Source: Brevundimonas sp. AJA228-03 (GTDB lineage Bacteria > Pseudomonadota > Alphaproteobacteria > Caulobacterales > Caulobacteraceae). From it: a stretch of 64,000 nt of DNA. Below, in pieces: positions 27,979 to 39,599 of the stretch. Location of the stretch: positions 434,001-498,000 of the forward strand of contig NZ_CP059297.1 of assembly GCF_017795885.1 (NCBI RefSeq). The letters are read 5' to 3'. The notes below the pieces were generated by a model. That model worked only from the letters and a program-made list of their open reading frames with translations, ran no database searches and had not been told where the DNA came from. A program made the translations under genes and the position numbers. Numbering within the stretch: the stretch's first letter is position 1; each line of letters opens with the position of its first letter.

Positions 27979-28791
27979 TCAGGCGGCAGCGAGGGATTTC
28001 AGACGGCGCCGCTCGCGGCCGACCACTTCCTTTGCCAGGCGCAGATAGGCCTGGCTGCCGGAGCATTTGAGGTCATAGATCAGGACGGGCTTCCCGAATG
28101 ACGGCGCCTCCGAGACCCGGACGTTCCTGGGAATCACCGCCTCATAGACCTTGTCGCCGAAATGGGCCCTCACGTCCGCCGCCACCTGCCCCGACAGGGC
28201 ATTGCGGCGGTCGTACATGGTCAGGACCAGCCCCTGGATCTCAAGCGACGGATTCAAGGACTGTCGGACCATGTCGATGGTCTTCATCAACTGGGTCAGC
28301 CCTTCCAGGGCGAAGAACTCGCACTGCAACGGGACCAGCACACCGTCGGCCGCTGACATGGCGTTGAGCGTCAGCAGGTTCAGCGATGGCGGGCAGTCGA
28401 TCAGGACATAGTCATACCCGGTGCTGCCGGCCTCGCCCTGCCGCATCAGCGCGTCGCGCAGACGGTAGGAACGCCTGTCCGCGTGACTCAGTTCGATCTC
28501 GACGCCCGACATATCGGCATCGGCAGGAATGATGTGCAGGCCGGGAACCGTCGTCGGTACGGCCGCGTCATGGACGGACCGTCCATCGACGATGACATCG
28601 TAGATGGTGATGCGTCGTGTTTCACGTGGAACGCCCAGACCCGTGGAGGCGTTGCCCTGGGGGTCCATGTCAACGATCAGGACCTTCTCGCCGATCGCGG
28701 CCAGGGCCGTGCCGAGGTTGATCGCAGTGGTGGTCTTGCCGACCCCGCCCTTCTGGTTCGAGACGGCGAGGACGCGGGCGGTCTTGGTCAT
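27979..28791 (-). CDS. parA: chromosome partitioning ATPase ParA
   Basis: A 270-residue deviant-Walker ATPase that moves ParB-parS complexes. The Walker A box KGGVGKTTT (about residues 13-21) carries the signature lysine. Further motifs are VDMDPQGNASTGLG, the Walker B-like YDYVLIDCPPSLNLLT, and NVRVSEAPSFGKPVLIYD. ATG 28791 is used; a GTG three codons upstream (28800) overlaps the end of rsmG and is an alternative. A near-consensus parS lies inside the coding region (28618-28633). Gene order rsmG-parA-parB is typical of alphaproteobacterial origins. Confidence 0.96.
   Translation of the reverse strand: MTKTARVLAVSNQKGGVGKTTTAINLGTALAAIGEKVLIVDMDPQGNASTGLGVPRETRRITIYDVIVDGRSVHDAAVPTTVPGLHIIPADADMSGVEIELSHADRRSYRLRDALMRQGEAGSTGYDYVLIDCPPSLNLLTLNAMSAADGVLVPLQCEFFALEGLTQLMKTIDMVRQSLNPSLEIQGLVLTMYDRRNALSGQVAADVRAHFGDKVYEAVIPRNVRVSEAPSFGKPVLIYDLKCSGSQAYLRLAKEVVGRERRRLKSLAAA
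28618..28633. other. parS: parS site within parA (one core mismatch)
   Basis: TGTTTCACGTGGAACG differs from the perfect site TGTTTCACGTGAAACA at one core base and the last base. It sits inside parA, encoding part of its N-terminal half. Confidence 0.75.
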
Positions 28792-31318: not shown

Positions 31319-31334
31319 TGTTTCACGTGAAACA
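31319..31334. other. parS: perfect parS site between mnmE and mnmG
   Basis: TGTTTCACGTGAAACA, a perfect 16-base palindrome identical to the canonical ParB site. It lies between the mnmE stop and the mnmG start. Confidence 0.95.
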
Positions 31335-32964: not shown

Positions 32965-33936
32965 ATGCGTGCCATTCGTCTCTCCCGTGCCGGAGGACCG
33001 GAGGTTCTGGAGCTTCAGGAGGTCGAGACCCCTGTACCAGGCCCGGGTCAGATCCTGATCCGGCACGAAGCGATCGGACTGAACTTCATCGATATCTATC
33101 ACCGGACCGGCCTCTATCCCCTGTCCTTTCCCACCGGTCTCGGTCTGGAGGGCGCAGGGATCGTCGAGGCGATCGGCGATGGCGTGACCCGATTCAGCGT
33201 CGGCGACCGCGCCGCCTACGGAACAGGACCGATCGGAGCCTATGCCGAAGCTCACGTCGTCGATGCGGGCCGCGCCGTCCGGTTTCCCGCCGACGTACCC
33301 CTGAAGACGGCGGCGGCAGTCATGCTGAAGGGTATGACCTCCGAGTGCCTGGCCAGGCGCGTGTTTCACGTGAAACAGGGAGACGCCGTTCTCGTCCATG
33401 CGGCGGCCGGCGGAGTGGGGTTGATCCTGTGTCAGTGGCTCCACTCGCTGGGAGCCACCGTCATCGGCACGGTCGGCGACGAGTCCAAGGCCAACATCGC
33501 ACGCGCCCACGGCTGCGACCATGTGATCCTCTACAAGACCGACGACATCGCCGGGCGGGTCAGGGCCCTCACCGACGGCCTGGGCTGCGCGGTCGTCTAC
33601 GATTCAGTGGGCCGGGATACGCTGGAATCCTCTCTCGCCAGCCTGAGCCGCAGGGGCCTGCTGGTCAGTTTCGGAAACGCCTCCGGGCCCGTCCCGCCGA
33701 TCGAGCCGCTCCGGCTCTCTCGCGGGGGGTCGCTGTTCCTGACCCGCCCGACCCTGTTCGACTATGTGGCCACGACGGAGGAACTGGACGAAAGCGCCGG
33801 CGCCCTGTTCGCGATGATACAGTCGGGTGCCATAACGGTCGAGATCGGCCAGACCTTCCGGTTGGATCAGGTCCGGGAAGCGCACGAGGCGCTCGCCGGG
33901 CGACAGACGACGGGCTCTACCCTGCTGATCCCGTGA
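32965..33936 (+). CDS. NADPH:quinone oxidoreductase (zeta-crystallin type), carrying an internal parS
   Basis: A 323-residue zinc-independent medium-chain reductase of the quinone oxidoreductase family, reducing quinones with NADPH in the cytosol. The N-terminal GroES-like domain has PGPGQILIRHEAIGLNFIDIYHRTGLYP. The Rossmann domain has VLVHAAAGGVGLILCQW, and YDSVGRDT follows. No zinc-binding cysteine pattern is present. The gene reads rightward between the leftward rho and mnmE transcripts. Residues 133-138 (VFHVKQ) are encoded by a perfect parS site, so this stretch is under double selection. Confidence 0.9.
   Translation: MRAIRLSRAGGPEVLELQEVETPVPGPGQILIRHEAIGLNFIDIYHRTGLYPLSFPTGLGLEGAGIVEAIGDGVTRFSVGDRAAYGTGPIGAYAEAHVVDAGRAVRFPADVPLKTAAAVMLKGMTSECLARRVFHVKQGDAVLVHAAAGGVGLILCQWLHSLGATVIGTVGDESKANIARAHGCDHVILYKTDDIAGRVRALTDGLGCAVVYDSVGRDTLESSLASLSRRGLLVSFGNASGPVPPIEPLRLSRGGSLFLTRPTLFDYVATTEELDESAGALFAMIQSGAITVEIGQTFRLDQVREAHEALAGRQTTGSTLLIP
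33362..33377. other. parS: perfect parS site inside the quinone reductase gene
   Basis: TGTTTCACGTGAAACA, identical to the site at 31319-31334, located within a protein-coding region and read in frame as part of VFHVKQ. Confidence 0.95.
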
Positions 33937-36110: not shown

Positions 36111-37190
36111 CTAGGCGGCCTTCTTTTGCGCCTGACAGGGGCAGGCCTTCCAGCGCCCCTGGCACCCGGGCCCCGCGGCCGCGACACCGGTTCGGCCCAG
36201 GCTGTCTTTCACCGCATCGGCCAGGCCGTCGATGAACAGAGGGCTGACCCCCACGGCCGGCACGCGCAGATAGGGGTGAACCCCGGCCTCATGCGCCAGT
36301 TCGCCGTATTCAATATCCAGCTCGACCAGGGTCTCGATGTGTTCGGACACGAAGGCGATGGGGGTAACGATCAGGCCGATACCCTCGGCTCCGGCCGCAC
36401 GAATGGCATCGGGCGTGGACGGTCCCAGCCATTTCAGCGGCCCGACGCGGCTCTGGTAGCACAGCAGCCAGTCGCTCAGACCGGCTTGGGACGCGACCGC
36501 GGCGACGGTCGCCTCGACCTGTTCCTGATAGGGATCTCCGTCCTTGTGGACGAGCTTTTCCGGGATGCCGTGCGCCGAAAAAAGGACCCGCACCGCCCGG
36601 CCCGGATGCTCCCGCGCAGCCTCCGCCAGCTTGAGACGAACGCCCTCGGCCTGCGCCGCGACCCAGCCTTCAGCCCGGGGATAGCAGCAGATCGTCCGGG
36701 TCGTGCCCGTGCCGCCATAGGCGGCGTTCCAGGCCTTCAGCGACGAGCGCGTCGTGGTGGTCGAGAACTGCGGATAGAGCGGCAACAAAACGACCTCGTC
36801 CGGCCCCCAGGCGGCCACGTCGACCGCGGCTTCCTCGGTCAAGGGATGCCAGTACCGCATGGCCATGAAGCTCCTGACCTCGTCGCCCGGCAGTCGGGCC
36901 GCCAGCGCGGCTTCCAGCGCCTCCATCTGGGCCCGGGTCTCGCCCTTCAGCGGCGATCCGCCATTGGAATCCATCATTGAATAGTTGGCCTGGGCGCTGG
37001 CCTCACGACGCGAGGAGATCAGCTTCGCCAGGGGCGTGCGGAACAACCCGGGTAGCCCGATAATGGCCGGGTCGTTGAACAGGTTAAACAGGAACGGCTT
37101 GACGGTCGCCGCATCGTCCGGCCCCCCCAGGTTGAAGAGCACGACGGCGATACGACGACCCGACCGCTGGCTCCCCGGGCTTGCGTTCAC
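36111..37190 (-). CDS. hemH: ferrochelatase with C-terminal cysteine cluster
   Basis: Inserts ferrous iron into protoporphyrin IX, the last step of haem synthesis; 359 residues. Signatures are VVLFNLGGPDD at the N-terminus, MMDSNGGSPLKGET, the YPQFSTTTTRSSLKAW segment, the catalytic-histidine motif VLFSAHGIPEKLV and TPIAFVSEHIETLVELDIEY. The C-terminus has CQGRWKACPCQ; clustered cysteines at this end are the ligands of a [2Fe-2S] cluster reported for the Caulobacter enzyme. The GTG at 37190 overlaps the hemE stop (GTGA), indicating translational coupling. Confidence 0.95.
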   Translation of the reverse strand: MNASPGSQRSGRRIAVVLFNLGGPDDAATVKPFLFNLFNDPAIIGLPGLFRTPLAKLISSRREASAQANYSMMDSNGGSPLKGETRAQMEALEAALAARLPGDEVRSFMAMRYWHPLTEEAAVDVAAWGPDEVVLLPLYPQFSTTTTRSSLKAWNAAYGGTGTTRTICCYPRAEGWVAAQAEGVRLKLAEAAREHPGRAVRVLFSAHGIPEKLVHKDGDPYQEQVEATVAAVASQAGLSDWLLCYQSRVGPLKWLGPSTPDAIRAAGAEGIGLIVTPIAFVSEHIETLVELDIEYGELAHEAGVHPYLRVPAVGVSPLFIDGLADAVKDSLGRTGVAAAGPGCQGRWKACPCQAQKKAA

Positions 37191-38224
37191 TGCGCGCCGA
37201 TCCGTTTCAGAACCTGCTCGACATGAGCGATCGGCACGTCCGGCAGGATGCCGTGGCCCAGGTTGAAGATCCATGGGCCGGAACCCCAGGCCTCCACAAG
37301 CTGATCCACCCTGCGGTCCAGCGCCGCACCGCCGACACGCAGCAGCAGCGGATCGAGCGCGCCCTGGATCGGCTTGATCTTCTGGACCTCGCGGCCGCGC
37401 TCCAGAGAACACGCCGTATCCACCGCCACACCCTGCACATCGACCTCGCGGGCATAGCGATCGGCATGAAGCGCTGAGCCGCGCGGGAACCCGATCAGCG
37501 GCACGGTAACGCCCAGCTCCCGCACCCGCCGGACCAGGGCCTGATGGGGCTTCAGCACCAGCCGCTCGAACAGGTCGTCCGGCAGGCCTTCTGCCCAGCT
37601 CTCGAAGATCTTCAGCGCGTCAGCCCCGGCGTCGGCCTGCATCTTCAGATAGCGGGCGGTGGCCTCGACCAGCACGGCCAGGACCTCGTCGACCTTCTCG
37701 GGTTCCGCATAGGCATAGGAGCGGGCCGTGGCGCGTTCGCCCTTGCCGATCGTGTTGTGATGGCCGTCCAGCATATAGGTGGCTACGGTCCAGGGCGCGC
37801 CGGCGAAGCCGATCAGGGCGCGTTCCGGCTCCAGCTGGCTGCGCACCAGGCTCAGGGTCTGGCCGACCTGGTGCAGATGCTGGCCTGCGCCTTCCGTGAG
37901 TTCCTGCATCCGGCTGACGCTCGGCAGCAGACCGAGGCGCGGCCCCTCGCCGGTCTCGAACCAGACGTCCTGGCCAAGCGCCTGCGGGATCAGCAGGATG
38001 TCGGCGAAGACGATGGCCGCATCAAAGCCAAAGCGGCGCATGGGTTGCAGGGTCGCCTCGGCCGCCATCTCCGGGTTCAGGCAGAAGGCGATAAAGTCCG
38101 GAGCCTGGGCCCGCAGCGCCCGGTATTCAGGCAGATAGCGCCCGGCCTGGCGCATGAACCAGACGGGTGGACGCTCCAGGGTCTCGCCCTGCAGGACGCG
38201 GATCAGTGACGGCGTGGTGCTCAT
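37187..38224 (-). CDS. hemE: uroporphyrinogen decarboxylase
   Basis: Converts uroporphyrinogen III to coproporphyrinogen III in the cytosol; 345 residues. The N-terminal signature PPVWFMRQAGRYLPEYR is intact, followed by LQPMRRFGFDAAIVFADILLIPQALG, GFAGAPWTVATYM and the C-terminal FNLGHGILPDVP. It is the first gene leftward from the predicted origin and heads hemE-hemH-hemJ. In Caulobacter the hemE promoters lie within Cori and are controlled by CtrA; the two CtrA-type boxes found here (38436 and 38500) occupy the same position. ATG 38224. Confidence 0.97.
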   Translation of the reverse strand: MSTTPSLIRVLQGETLERPPVWFMRQAGRYLPEYRALRAQAPDFIAFCLNPEMAAEATLQPMRRFGFDAAIVFADILLIPQALGQDVWFETGEGPRLGLLPSVSRMQELTEGAGQHLHQVGQTLSLVRSQLEPERALIGFAGAPWTVATYMLDGHHNTIGKGERATARSYAYAEPEKVDEVLAVLVEATARYLKMQADAGADALKIFESWAEGLPDDLFERLVLKPHQALVRRVRELGVTVPLIGFPRGSALHADRYAREVDVQGVAVDTACSLERGREVQKIKPIQGALDPLLLRVGGAALDRRVDQLVEAWGSGPWIFNLGHGILPDVPIAHVEQVLKRIGAQ

Positions 38225-38369
38225 GACCTTGGCTTTACGGGGGGAGGGCGCTGGCCTCAAGCCCACGTCCTCCTCCTTGTTCCATTGAGAATCATAAAAG
38301 GATTGGAGGAAAGCAGCAGAGGGCGGGACGGCGGGGACAAACCGCGACGATTCCGGGCTTCGGTATCGC

Positions 38370-38378
38370 TTTTCCACG
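38370..38378 (+). promoter_or_regulatory. weak candidate DnaA box
   Basis: TTTTCCACG matches the consensus TTATCCACA at seven of nine bases, on the hemE side of the first CtrA-type box. Confidence 0.35.
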
Positions 38379-38435
38379 CCCGGCGGGCGGCTTCAGTCGT
38401 TCGCGACGAAGGCCGGTGGAAAGCGGGGATAATCC

Positions 38436-38450
38436 TTAACCAAACCTTAA
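38436..38450. promoter_or_regulatory. CtrA-type box (TTAA-N7-TTAA)
   Basis: TTAACCAAACCTTAA, an exact match to the full CtrA recognition pattern. It lies 212 bp upstream of hemE within the predicted origin, where CtrA binding would repress initiation and affect hemE transcription. Confidence 0.85.
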
Positions 38451-38499
38451 CGGTCGGGGGCTCCGGCGGGTTGTTCAGCCTTGACTGGCGTGGGGGTCA

Positions 38500-38514
38500 T
38501 TTACCTTCTGTTAA
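38500..38514. promoter_or_regulatory. second CtrA-type box (TTTA-N7-TTAA)
   Basis: TTTACCTTCTGTTAA matches the CtrA pattern with one substitution in the first half-site and is 50 bp from the first box. Confidence 0.75.
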
Positions 38515-38664
38515 GGATGTCCCCAACCTACCGACCGGGGCTACGGCCGCATGGGATGATGTCCGGCAAGGATACCGGTGTGTCCGACATTCTCCCGGCT
38601 CGCCCGGCGCACAGTGGCGCCCTATAGAAAACCGTGCCCCGGCGTCGCCGCGCGGCGCCCAGAC

Positions 38665-38673
38665 CGATCCACA
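38665..38673 (+). promoter_or_regulatory. candidate DnaA box (G-box type)
   Basis: CGATCCACA matches the Caulobacter-type G-box TGATCCACA at eight of nine bases, on the right side of the predicted origin. Confidence 0.5.
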
Positions 38674-38729
38674 GGAATCACGACCATTCGCGCAATCTCG
38701 ATCTTGGTTATCCAGCCGTGGGGTCCGCG

Positions 38730-39599
38730 GTGAGCCCGGCCAGGCCTGCGGGCGCCTCGCGGCTGGCGACCTATTTCCACGTCCATCTGGTCTCGGATTC
38801 GACCGGTGAGACGCTGAACGCCATGGCCAAGGCGGTCACGGCCCGCTTCGACGGCGTCATCCCGATCGAGCACATCTACGCCCTGGTTCGGTCAGACCGC
38901 CAGATGGAGCGTGTGCTGGAGGAAATCGCGACGGCACCGGGTGTCGTTCTTCACACCATCGTCGATCGTGCCCTGAGGGCCCAGCTGGAAGAGGGCTGCC
39001 GCGCGCTGGACATTCCCAACATCGGCGCTCTGGACCCGCTGGTCGGAGCCCTGTCCCGGTACCTGGGCGCCGCCCTGTCGACCCGCGTTGGTGCCCAGCA
39101 CACCCTGGATCACGACTACTTCAACCGGATGGGGGCGCTAGACTACGCCATGTCGCACGACGACGGCCAGGGCACGGCCGAGCAGCTGGAGGGGGCCGAT
39201 GTCGTCCTGGTCGGGGTCAGCCGCACATCCAAGACGCCGACCTGCATCTATCTGGCGCATCGAGGTGTCCGGGCGGCCAATGTGCCTCTGGTGCCCGGTC
39301 AGGAGGATGGCGAACGCCTGGTCGGACTGAAAAACCCGCTGATCGTGGGCCTGACCGTGTCGCCTGACCGGCTGATCCAGATTCGCAGGAACCGGCTGGA
39401 CGGCCTGAACGCCAACCACACCTCCTCCTATGTCGAGCCCGACGCCGTGCGGGAGGAGACCATCAAGGCCCGCCGCGCCTTCGAGCGTCGGGGATGGCCG
39501 ACGATCGATGTGACCCGCCGCTCGGTCGAGGAGACGGCTGCAGCCATTCTCAATCTGCTGAACGAACGGCGGAACAGGACGGCAGGGGTCACCTGGTGA
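38730..39599 (+). CDS. ppsR: pyruvate, phosphate/water dikinase regulatory protein (DUF299 kinase/pyrophosphorylase)
   Basis: A 289-residue bifunctional regulator of the DUF299 family that uses ADP and phosphate to phosphorylate or dephosphorylate a threonine of PEP synthase or pyruvate phosphate dikinase. Signatures are YFHVHLVSDSTGETLNAMAKA, the P-loop-like GVSRTSKTPTCIYLAHRG and a C-terminal IDVTRRSVEETAAAIL. GTG 38730 is preferred because it gives the N-terminal length I recall for the Caulobacter protein; GTG 38718 is also in frame. It is the first gene rightward of the origin (RP001 in Caulobacter nomenclature). Its stop overlaps the maf start. Confidence 0.92.
   Translation: MSPARPAGASRLATYFHVHLVSDSTGETLNAMAKAVTARFDGVIPIEHIYALVRSDRQMERVLEEIATAPGVVLHTIVDRALRAQLEEGCRALDIPNIGALDPLVGALSRYLGAALSTRVGAQHTLDHDYFNRMGALDYAMSHDDGQGTAEQLEGADVVLVGVSRTSKTPTCIYLAHRGVRAANVPLVPGQEDGERLVGLKNPLIVGLTVSPDRLIQIRRNRLDGLNANHTSSYVEPDAVREETIKARRAFERRGWPTIDVTRRSVEETAAAILNLLNERRNRTAGVTW

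Follow-up and report, generated by a model that had tools for sequence, protein, structure and literature searches.

The window analysed here, meaning the whole 64-kb stretch of DNA at positions 434,001-498,000 of a single 3,038,188-bp contig, contains a gene-free gap of 505 bp (38225..38729) between hemE and ppsR, which lies at about 0.472 Mb on its own chromosome (genome G000). The left neighbour hemE (37187..38224, minus strand; NCBIfam TIGR01464, 359 bits) and the right neighbour ppsR (38730..39599, plus strand; NCBIfam PRK05339, 318 bits) both read away from the gap, and beyond ppsR follow maf, aroE, coaE, dnaQ and secB in this order, secB on the minus strand, with NCBIfam matches of which those of maf and aroE score below the curated cut-offs. 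This flanking gene order and the divergent reading on both sides, which an earlier note on this DNA had put forward, are backed by the profile matches as well as by synteny: hemE adjoins ppsR in all 60 Brevundimonas loci fetched (61 genomes searched, 60 with a ppsR match) and likewise in all 80 named Brevundimonas loci. Among 40 loci fetched from other genera of the Caulobacteraceae (out of 96 genomes with a match), hemE adjoins ppsR in 33, which span 17 genera, and was not found beside ppsR in the remaining seven.

The gap carries two CtrA-type boxes on the plus strand. Box 1, TTAACCAAACCTTAA (38436..38450), is an exact match to TTAA-N7-TTAA and is kept in most of the genus; box 2, TTTACCTTCTGTTAA (38500..38514), has one mismatch to this pattern and begins 64 bp after the start of box 1. 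With the pattern TTAAC-N6-TTAA and up to one mismatch, the two boxes are the only matches in the 64-kb window, and none of 100 shuffles reached as many. The 3.04-Mb genome as a whole has six exact TTAA-N7-TTAA matches; strict genome-wide counts of the CtrA motif are too few for a comparison of regulons.

DnaA-like 9-mers, defined as TTATCCACA with up to two mismatches, are found five times in the 505 bp (one of them overlapping CtrA box 1), where the 64 such 9-mers of the 64-kb window would lead one to expect 0.5 (Poisson P = 1.8e-4 for at least five and 1.8e-3 for at least four sites); the window as a whole is mildly rich in such 9-mers, with 64 against 51 in shuffles. No perfect DnaA box is among the DnaA-like sites of the gap, and the gap holds no exact copy of the Caulobacter G-box TGATCCACA. 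From left to right, the four weak 9-mers outside the boxes are TTTTCCACG (38370..38378, plus strand), with two mismatches to TTATCCACA and a TTTTCC that is largely kept in the alignment; the left site TTATCCCCG (38424..38432, minus strand), 3 bp from CtrA box 1; CGATCCACA (38665..38673, plus strand), whose core TCCACAGG is conserved; and TTATCCAGC (38708..38716, plus strand), which falls outside the conserved blocks. A further DnaA-like site, the right site TGTCCCCA (38518..38525, plus strand), stands beside box 2 as the mirror of the left site.

On the hemE side, an AT-rich stretch (38265..38319; up to 60% AT in 40-bp windows) is a candidate unwinding element. Only 0.28% of the 40-mers in the window match its AT-richness, and 78 of 101 distinct gaps of the genus have their most AT-rich 40-mer at the equivalent place on the hemE side. 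A conserved block in the 60-genome alignment (38297..38341) comprises the AT edge, AAGCAGCAG-type triplets, a G-rich run and GGGGACAA, an arrangement which we take to resemble a basal unwinding system. Three GANTC (CcrM-type) sites (38289..38293, 38349..38353 and 38675..38679) compare to about 0.8 predicted from the 106 sites of the 64-kb window, an excess that is weak taken alone. The two boxes, the DnaA-like 9-mers and these three sites agree in coordinates and motif with the earlier note.

Towards ppsR, GGGATGA (38553..38559, plus strand) is conserved in the 60-genome alignment, and two GGCGCC palindromes (38616..38621 and, seen also in the alignment, 38654..38659) belong to a motif of which each gap in the Brevundimonas diminuta clade has an enlarged set of 6-11 copies. 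Between the two palindromes (38616-38659), upstream of ppsR, sits the promoter-like CTATAG (38622..38627, plus strand; alignment consensus GCTATAG), a possible -10 element of a promoter directed towards ppsR; the Caulobacter promoter consensus is GCTANAWC. It is possible that the elements at 38553-38559 and 38616-38659 belong to an untranslated or small RNA leader. A search of the gap against Rfam gave nothing above threshold and a single match far below it, and the single-strand fold of the window's own stretch is not stable relative to shuffles (z 0.8).

Chromosomal position and replication polarity

Three parS-type sites, GTTTCACGTGGAAC (28619..28632) and two copies of GTTTCACGTGAAAC (31320..31333 and 33363..33376), lie 5-10 kb to the left of the gap and are the only exact GTTYCACGTGRAAC matches in the genome. 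In Caulobacter, parS is located near the origin Cori, and parS-type sites were found near hemE|ppsR in all 13 genomes searched. In a scan of 29,610 overlapping 505-bp segments, covering 1.52 Mb or half of the genome, at least two CtrA-type boxes together with at least four DnaA-like sites occurred in five overlapping segments only, all from this region (starts at 472,201-472,401). Two CtrA-type matches each, with fewer DnaA-like sites, were found in the same 1.52 Mb at about 1.155 and 2.553 Mb.

The polarity of the window's own chromosome, as measured by GC skew, GGGNAGGG and data-driven 8-mers, locates the terminus and fails to locate the origin. The terminus is sharp at about 2.03 Mb and its antipode at 0.51 Mb is close to the gap at 0.472 Mb. 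Polarity is nearly neutral over 200-720 kb, and change-point fits within this zone are best at 687 kb (GGGNAGGG) and 711 kb (8-mers), the gap at 472 kb scoring 32 and 24 log units below these points, respectively. The whole-genome skew proposed as a check in the earlier note, taken from this genome alone, thus speaks against an origin in the gap. For G056, a closely related genome on a single contig, the fit puts the GGGNAGGG change point at 275 kb, and points from 225 to 275 kb score within 2 log units of the optimum (106 motif copies in 20 stretches, each of 20 kb, with arm frequencies taken from G000); hemE|ppsR at 287 kb is located about 12 kb from the fitted switch and scores 5.4 log units lower. 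Comparison of the two genomes shows inversions and displacements of blocks around the origin, and we infer that the neutral zone of G000 reflects rearrangement relative to G056.

Two other positions were considered. The dnaA gene (G000:C1:316879-318255; locus L007, outside the window) lies beside a dnaN-like ORF at 154 kb from the gap, and the distance from dnaA to hemE|ppsR is 138-530 kb in all nine single-contig Brevundimonas genomes searched; consequently, a contig that is opened at dnaA begins elsewhere than at the predicted origin. As an origin, the dnaA position was rejected for its bad fit in G056, where it is 31 log units worse than the best change point. Near the change point at about 0.7 Mb, the nearest exact CtrA site (708,817) is found inside a long ORF and has two DnaA-like matches nearby, one of which overlaps the CtrA site itself; this position was likewise rejected as an origin.

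The synteny, the parS-type sites, the cluster of CtrA and DnaA motifs, unique within the scanned half of the genome, and the polarity switch fitted near the locus in G056 uphold the chromosomal origin predicted in the earlier note: the 505-bp gap is very probably a Cori-type replication origin and the positional homologue of Caulobacter Cori.

CtrA boxes across the family and their absence from the Brevundimonas diminuta clade

The 140 loci of the genus represent 101 distinct gaps; for 39 of the 60 fetched gaps an identical sequence is found in a titled Brevundimonas record. Boxes were counted with up to one mismatch, leaving aside the AT-rich block that makes up the initial 130 nt of the core-to-core stretch. 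At least one CtrA box is present in 86 of the 101 gaps: two boxes in 63, three in 5 and one in 18, with none in the remaining 15. The 159 matches in total compare to 1.4 in dinucleotide shuffles. The earlier contrast of only two boxes with the five of C. crescentus therefore holds as a count and not as a peculiarity of this strain, because two boxes are the commonest state in Brevundimonas, seen also in the sampled relatives of B. subvibrioides. Among the 63 two-box gaps, start-to-start spacing is 60-65 bp in 58, most commonly 64 bp (30 gaps), and 52-53 bp in the other five, corresponding to about six and about five helical turns, respectively.

The boxes of these 63 gaps are accompanied by DnaA-like partners, which adjoin the outer sides of both boxes in mirror order. 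On the left, 54 gaps have a GGGGATAA-type site, which corresponds to a weak DnaA box read on the opposite strand, no more than 16 nt outside box 1 (the pattern also takes in GTGGACAA), compared to 4.3% of random 16-mers drawn from the same gaps; on the right, TCC[AC]C lies within 16 nt of box 2 in all 63, compared to 14% of random 16-mers. Since the gaps are related by descent, these percentages do not represent independent trials. The description of the DnaA boxes as weak in the earlier note is accurate, yet it misses that these weak sites are recurrent partners of the CtrA boxes in the two-box gaps of the genus.

Outside Brevundimonas, the 33 gaps with adjacent hemE contain 100 box matches (5.0 in shuffles), 63 of them exact (0.12 in shuffles). 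An exact box is present in 28 of these gaps and a box with up to one mismatch in all 33, compared to 0.4% and 12% of their shuffles, respectively. At least one match was found in the 700 bp before ppsR in six of the seven loci without adjacent hemE, and none in the seventh (L275). Since most of the sampled genera of the family have boxes, and two is the number seen most often within Brevundimonas, the boxes are probably ancestral.

Against this background, the absence of boxes from one group of Brevundimonas stands out. In a tree of hemE and ppsR proteins from 60 genomes, ten gaps that are box-less with the AT-rich block counted in form a single clade (support 100/99), and a quick tree of 100 rows, with L143 left out for its long branch, recovers a clade of 13 rows (SH-aLRT 99), all box-less, which includes B. 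diminuta ATCC 11568. Identical gap sequences extend the clade to records titled as B. diminuta (3F5N and 470-4), B. guildfordensis and B. bullata. A locus of the same B. diminuta-clade type is carried by a record titled as a Bordetella MAG (L191), the title or bin of which is therefore probably wrong. The 13 distinct gaps of the clade contain no CtrA box in the whole stretch, the first 130 nt included. Beyond these first 130 nt even TTAA is missing from all 13, where the remaining 88 gaps average 2.94 copies; within the first 130 nt the clade gaps do contain it (mean 0.77). Of the outgroups closest to the clade, L098 carries a single box together with seven GGCGCC, and L130, L176 and L203 have two boxes each, both mismatched in L130. 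Boxes were lost separately in two other gaps, L099 and L100.

Other parts of the locus were retained. Twelve of the 13 clade gaps have a left DnaA-like site at offset 204-206 (11 with GGGATAA, one with TGGAAAA), and the remaining gap has one at 196 (TGGATAA); it is the shared position that counts here, because a chance match is expected in 36% of such stretches. A right-hand DnaA-like site, by a looser pattern, is present in eight. CtrA itself was found in all 16 genomes searched, nine of them from the clade, with 88-89% identity to a C. crescentus CtrA sequence. Within residues 121-226, the CtrA of the clade and that of the window's genome are distinguished by no positions other than 138, 144, 206 and 225, each of which varies outside the clade too, and the TTAA sites of the ctrA promoter are kept in the clade, three of them in the usual places in eight of nine genomes. 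An intact CtrA and a preserved ctrA promoter imply that the boxes were lost at the origin and that the change does not concern the regulator. The clade gaps have thus lost the boxes but still have hemE and ppsR on their flanks and a DnaA-like site on the left, so that in this group CtrA probably does not control initiation directly.

GGCGCC and GANTC in the gaps of the clade

The clade gaps are rich in GGCGCC and, for the most part, in GANTC. GANTC reaches a mean of 6.0 per gap in the 13 distinct clade gaps (range 2-8), compared to 2.6 in the others, and a density of 11.0 per kb, compared to 1.7 per kb in the flanking genes. GGCGCC reaches 14.7 per kb in the clade gaps and 4.2 in other gaps. 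The commonest spacing between neighbouring copies is 21 bp (38 of 220), and pairs within 0.17 turn of an integer number of turns make up 44 of 92 in the clade and 48 of 128 elsewhere, with 34% expected; we claim little for such helical phasing because the pairs are related by descent. The GGCGCC array of G022 (L318, 10080-10335) has a modestly stable single-strand fold relative to shuffles (z -2.5).

According to passages in PMC7987155, the C. crescentus enzyme CCNA_03741 methylates GGCGCC and has a predicted ortholog in B. subvibrioides. A related m5C methyltransferase, a candidate enzyme for GGCGCC, is present in 13 of 14 genomes, including all eight of the clade, and falls into two subgroups that are about 42-52% identical; the genome without a match (G026) also has no GGCGCC in its gap. 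Exact CtrA-type boxes were observed about 140 and about 250 bp past the ends of the methyltransferase matches in two genomes (G022:C10:256100 and G051:C12:146718, respectively).

It is conceivable that the clade switched its origin regulator, in that the boxes were dropped and a GGCGCC array, mostly together with dense GANTC, came to time initiation through a methyltransferase or a GGCGCC-binding protein that reads it. We hold this scenario to be rather doubtful. The methyltransferase is present also where CtrA boxes remain, and the box-less L099 and L100 hold only two or three GGCGCC and hence lost their boxes without gaining the motif. The latter observation equally fits the alternative that the array is no origin element and merely a by-product of a genome-wide excess of GGCGCC, which we consider a serious possibility, though somewhat short of an even chance. 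Such an excess can be an epiphenomenon of methyltransferase or repair activity, as passages in PMC4390886 describe, and TGGGCGCCG is indeed frequent (374-562 copies, both strands) in 10 of 14 Brevundimonas genomes; it is scarcer in the other four (20 in G022, 72 in G056, 75 in G000 and 121 in G010), and a reversed control pattern at 10-64 copies per strand indicates that there is no excess in G010 and G022. Within 200 kb of G039, the 550-bp segment overlapping the origin is the densest for GGCGCC only narrowly (eight copies, the next seven) and is also the densest for GANTC (nine, the next six). Against a mere by-product, most of the clade shares seven positions at which GGCGCC recurs, and the flanking genes of the clade have only 3.2 copies per kb, compared to 14.7 in the gap. 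Moreover, the motif is rare over 200 kb of G022 (0.18 per kb in coding and 0.39 per kb in non-coding DNA), yet the 550-bp origin segment contains nine copies and the next segment three; its GANTC content is unremarkable (three, with a maximum of four elsewhere).

A narrower idea, that GGCGCC is an iteron confined to the origin, was weakened by the abundance of TGGGCGCCG in 10 of the 14 genomes and partly revived by the low background of G022. Iterated TGGGCGCCG is reminiscent of the methyltransferase-linked highly iterated palindromes described in parts of PMC4390886.

Proposed control of the predicted origin and comparison with known systems

Where the gap lies, which elements it holds, how far these are conserved and that they stand in mirror order can be read directly from the sequences. 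By analogy with C. crescentus, from which CtrA and DnaA binding, occlusion and firing are carried over, these elements would work together as follows. DnaA would assemble on several weak sites and open the hemE-side AT-rich stretch. CtrA~P would occupy both boxes on roughly the same face of the helix, their start-to-start distance of 64 bp amounting to about six turns, and the bound CtrA would cover or block the outer DnaA-like sites, so that the origin would stay silent until CtrA is removed. Blocking is suggested because each box adjoins a weak DnaA-like site on its outer side. Passages in PMC4468827 describe a proposal that CtrA excludes DnaA from Cori, where G-boxes lie near or in CtrA sites, and the two-box layout fits this simplest mechanism of CtrA keeping DnaA off its sites. 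We consider it highly likely that the explanation as a whole is correct, i.e. that the chromosome origin lies at hemE|ppsR, is silenced via CtrA boxes and has lost these boxes in the B. diminuta clade.

There are two alternatives to a silenced origin. The gap might be nothing but a divergent promoter region, the boxes of which serve hemE, ppsR or a CcnA-like RNA, with the origin elsewhere, for example at dnaA or at about 0.7 Mb. The polarity fits of the window's own genome favour the latter position, GCTATAG is kept upstream of ppsR, and CcnA, an RNA whose promoter and end carry CtrA boxes, is encoded in the origin of C. crescentus (passages in PMC8959179). This alternative is nevertheless highly improbable in view of the parS-type cluster near the gap, the bad fit of dnaA in G056 and the location of the 708,817 site, with its two DnaA-like matches, inside a long ORF, and the far sub-threshold Rfam score argues against a CcnA-like RNA. 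As CcnA overlaps the origin in Caulobacter, an RNA and an origin at this locus can both be real. The boxes might, on the other hand, act at a genuine origin mainly on origin-linked transcription of hemE or an RNA, with DnaA blocking secondary; their loss in the clade would then alter transcription and not the timing of initiation. A lowered CtrA affinity at all five Cori sites perturbed the cell cycle of C. crescentus only mildly in laboratory culture (passages in PMC4468827), which agrees with such a role. The boxes adjoin DnaA-like sites in mirror order, however, which points to competition between the two proteins, and we regard a mainly transcriptional role as unlikely.

What is new here is the box-less B. 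diminuta clade with its 13 distinct gaps despite an intact CtrA, and the wider interest lies in this clade beyond the window's own origin. In titles, abstract openings and passages of the literature we found no account of a Brevundimonas origin or of CtrA-box loss in B. diminuta, which is no proof of novelty. Our data show CtrA boxes at the predicted origin beyond Caulobacter, in most of the sampled genera of the Caulobacteraceae, and define a two-box layout with mirror-placed DnaA-like partners. The purpose of CtrA binding at the origin is a long-standing question, and a natural loss of boxes in a culturable clade with intact CtrA makes it testable by comparison of close relatives. The GGCGCC array is a candidate replacement element that is directly testable.

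Among known systems, Cori of C. crescentus is the closest in that it shares the flanks hemE and COG1806 (ppsR), an AT-rich region and weak DnaA sites near or in the CtrA boxes (passages in PMC1914354, PMC8959179 and PMC4468827). It differs by its five boxes (passages in PMC8959179 and PMC1914354), compared to two here, about 64 bp apart and with outward DnaA-like partners. The TGATCCACA G-boxes present there have no exact copy in the window's gap. Likewise, dnaA is close to Cori in Caulobacter, in contrast to the 138-530 kb in the nine Brevundimonas genomes. The predicted origins of Rickettsiales (Wolbachia, Ehrlichia, Rickettsia) are also located beside hemE and have from zero to seven CtrA boxes among relatives (passages in PMC1914354). 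Those are AT-rich, obligately intracellular bacteria, whereas the loss described here took place within one culturable genus with ctrA intact. Hyphomonas neptunium has a CtrA ChIP-seq site next to its origin (passages in PMC7200025). This species belongs to a different family. In E. coli, oriC contains a cluster of GATC sites on which SeqA acts. If the GANTC- and GGCGCC-rich origins of the clade were controlled by methylation, the GATC/SeqA system would be their functional analogue, with other sites and other methyltransferases.
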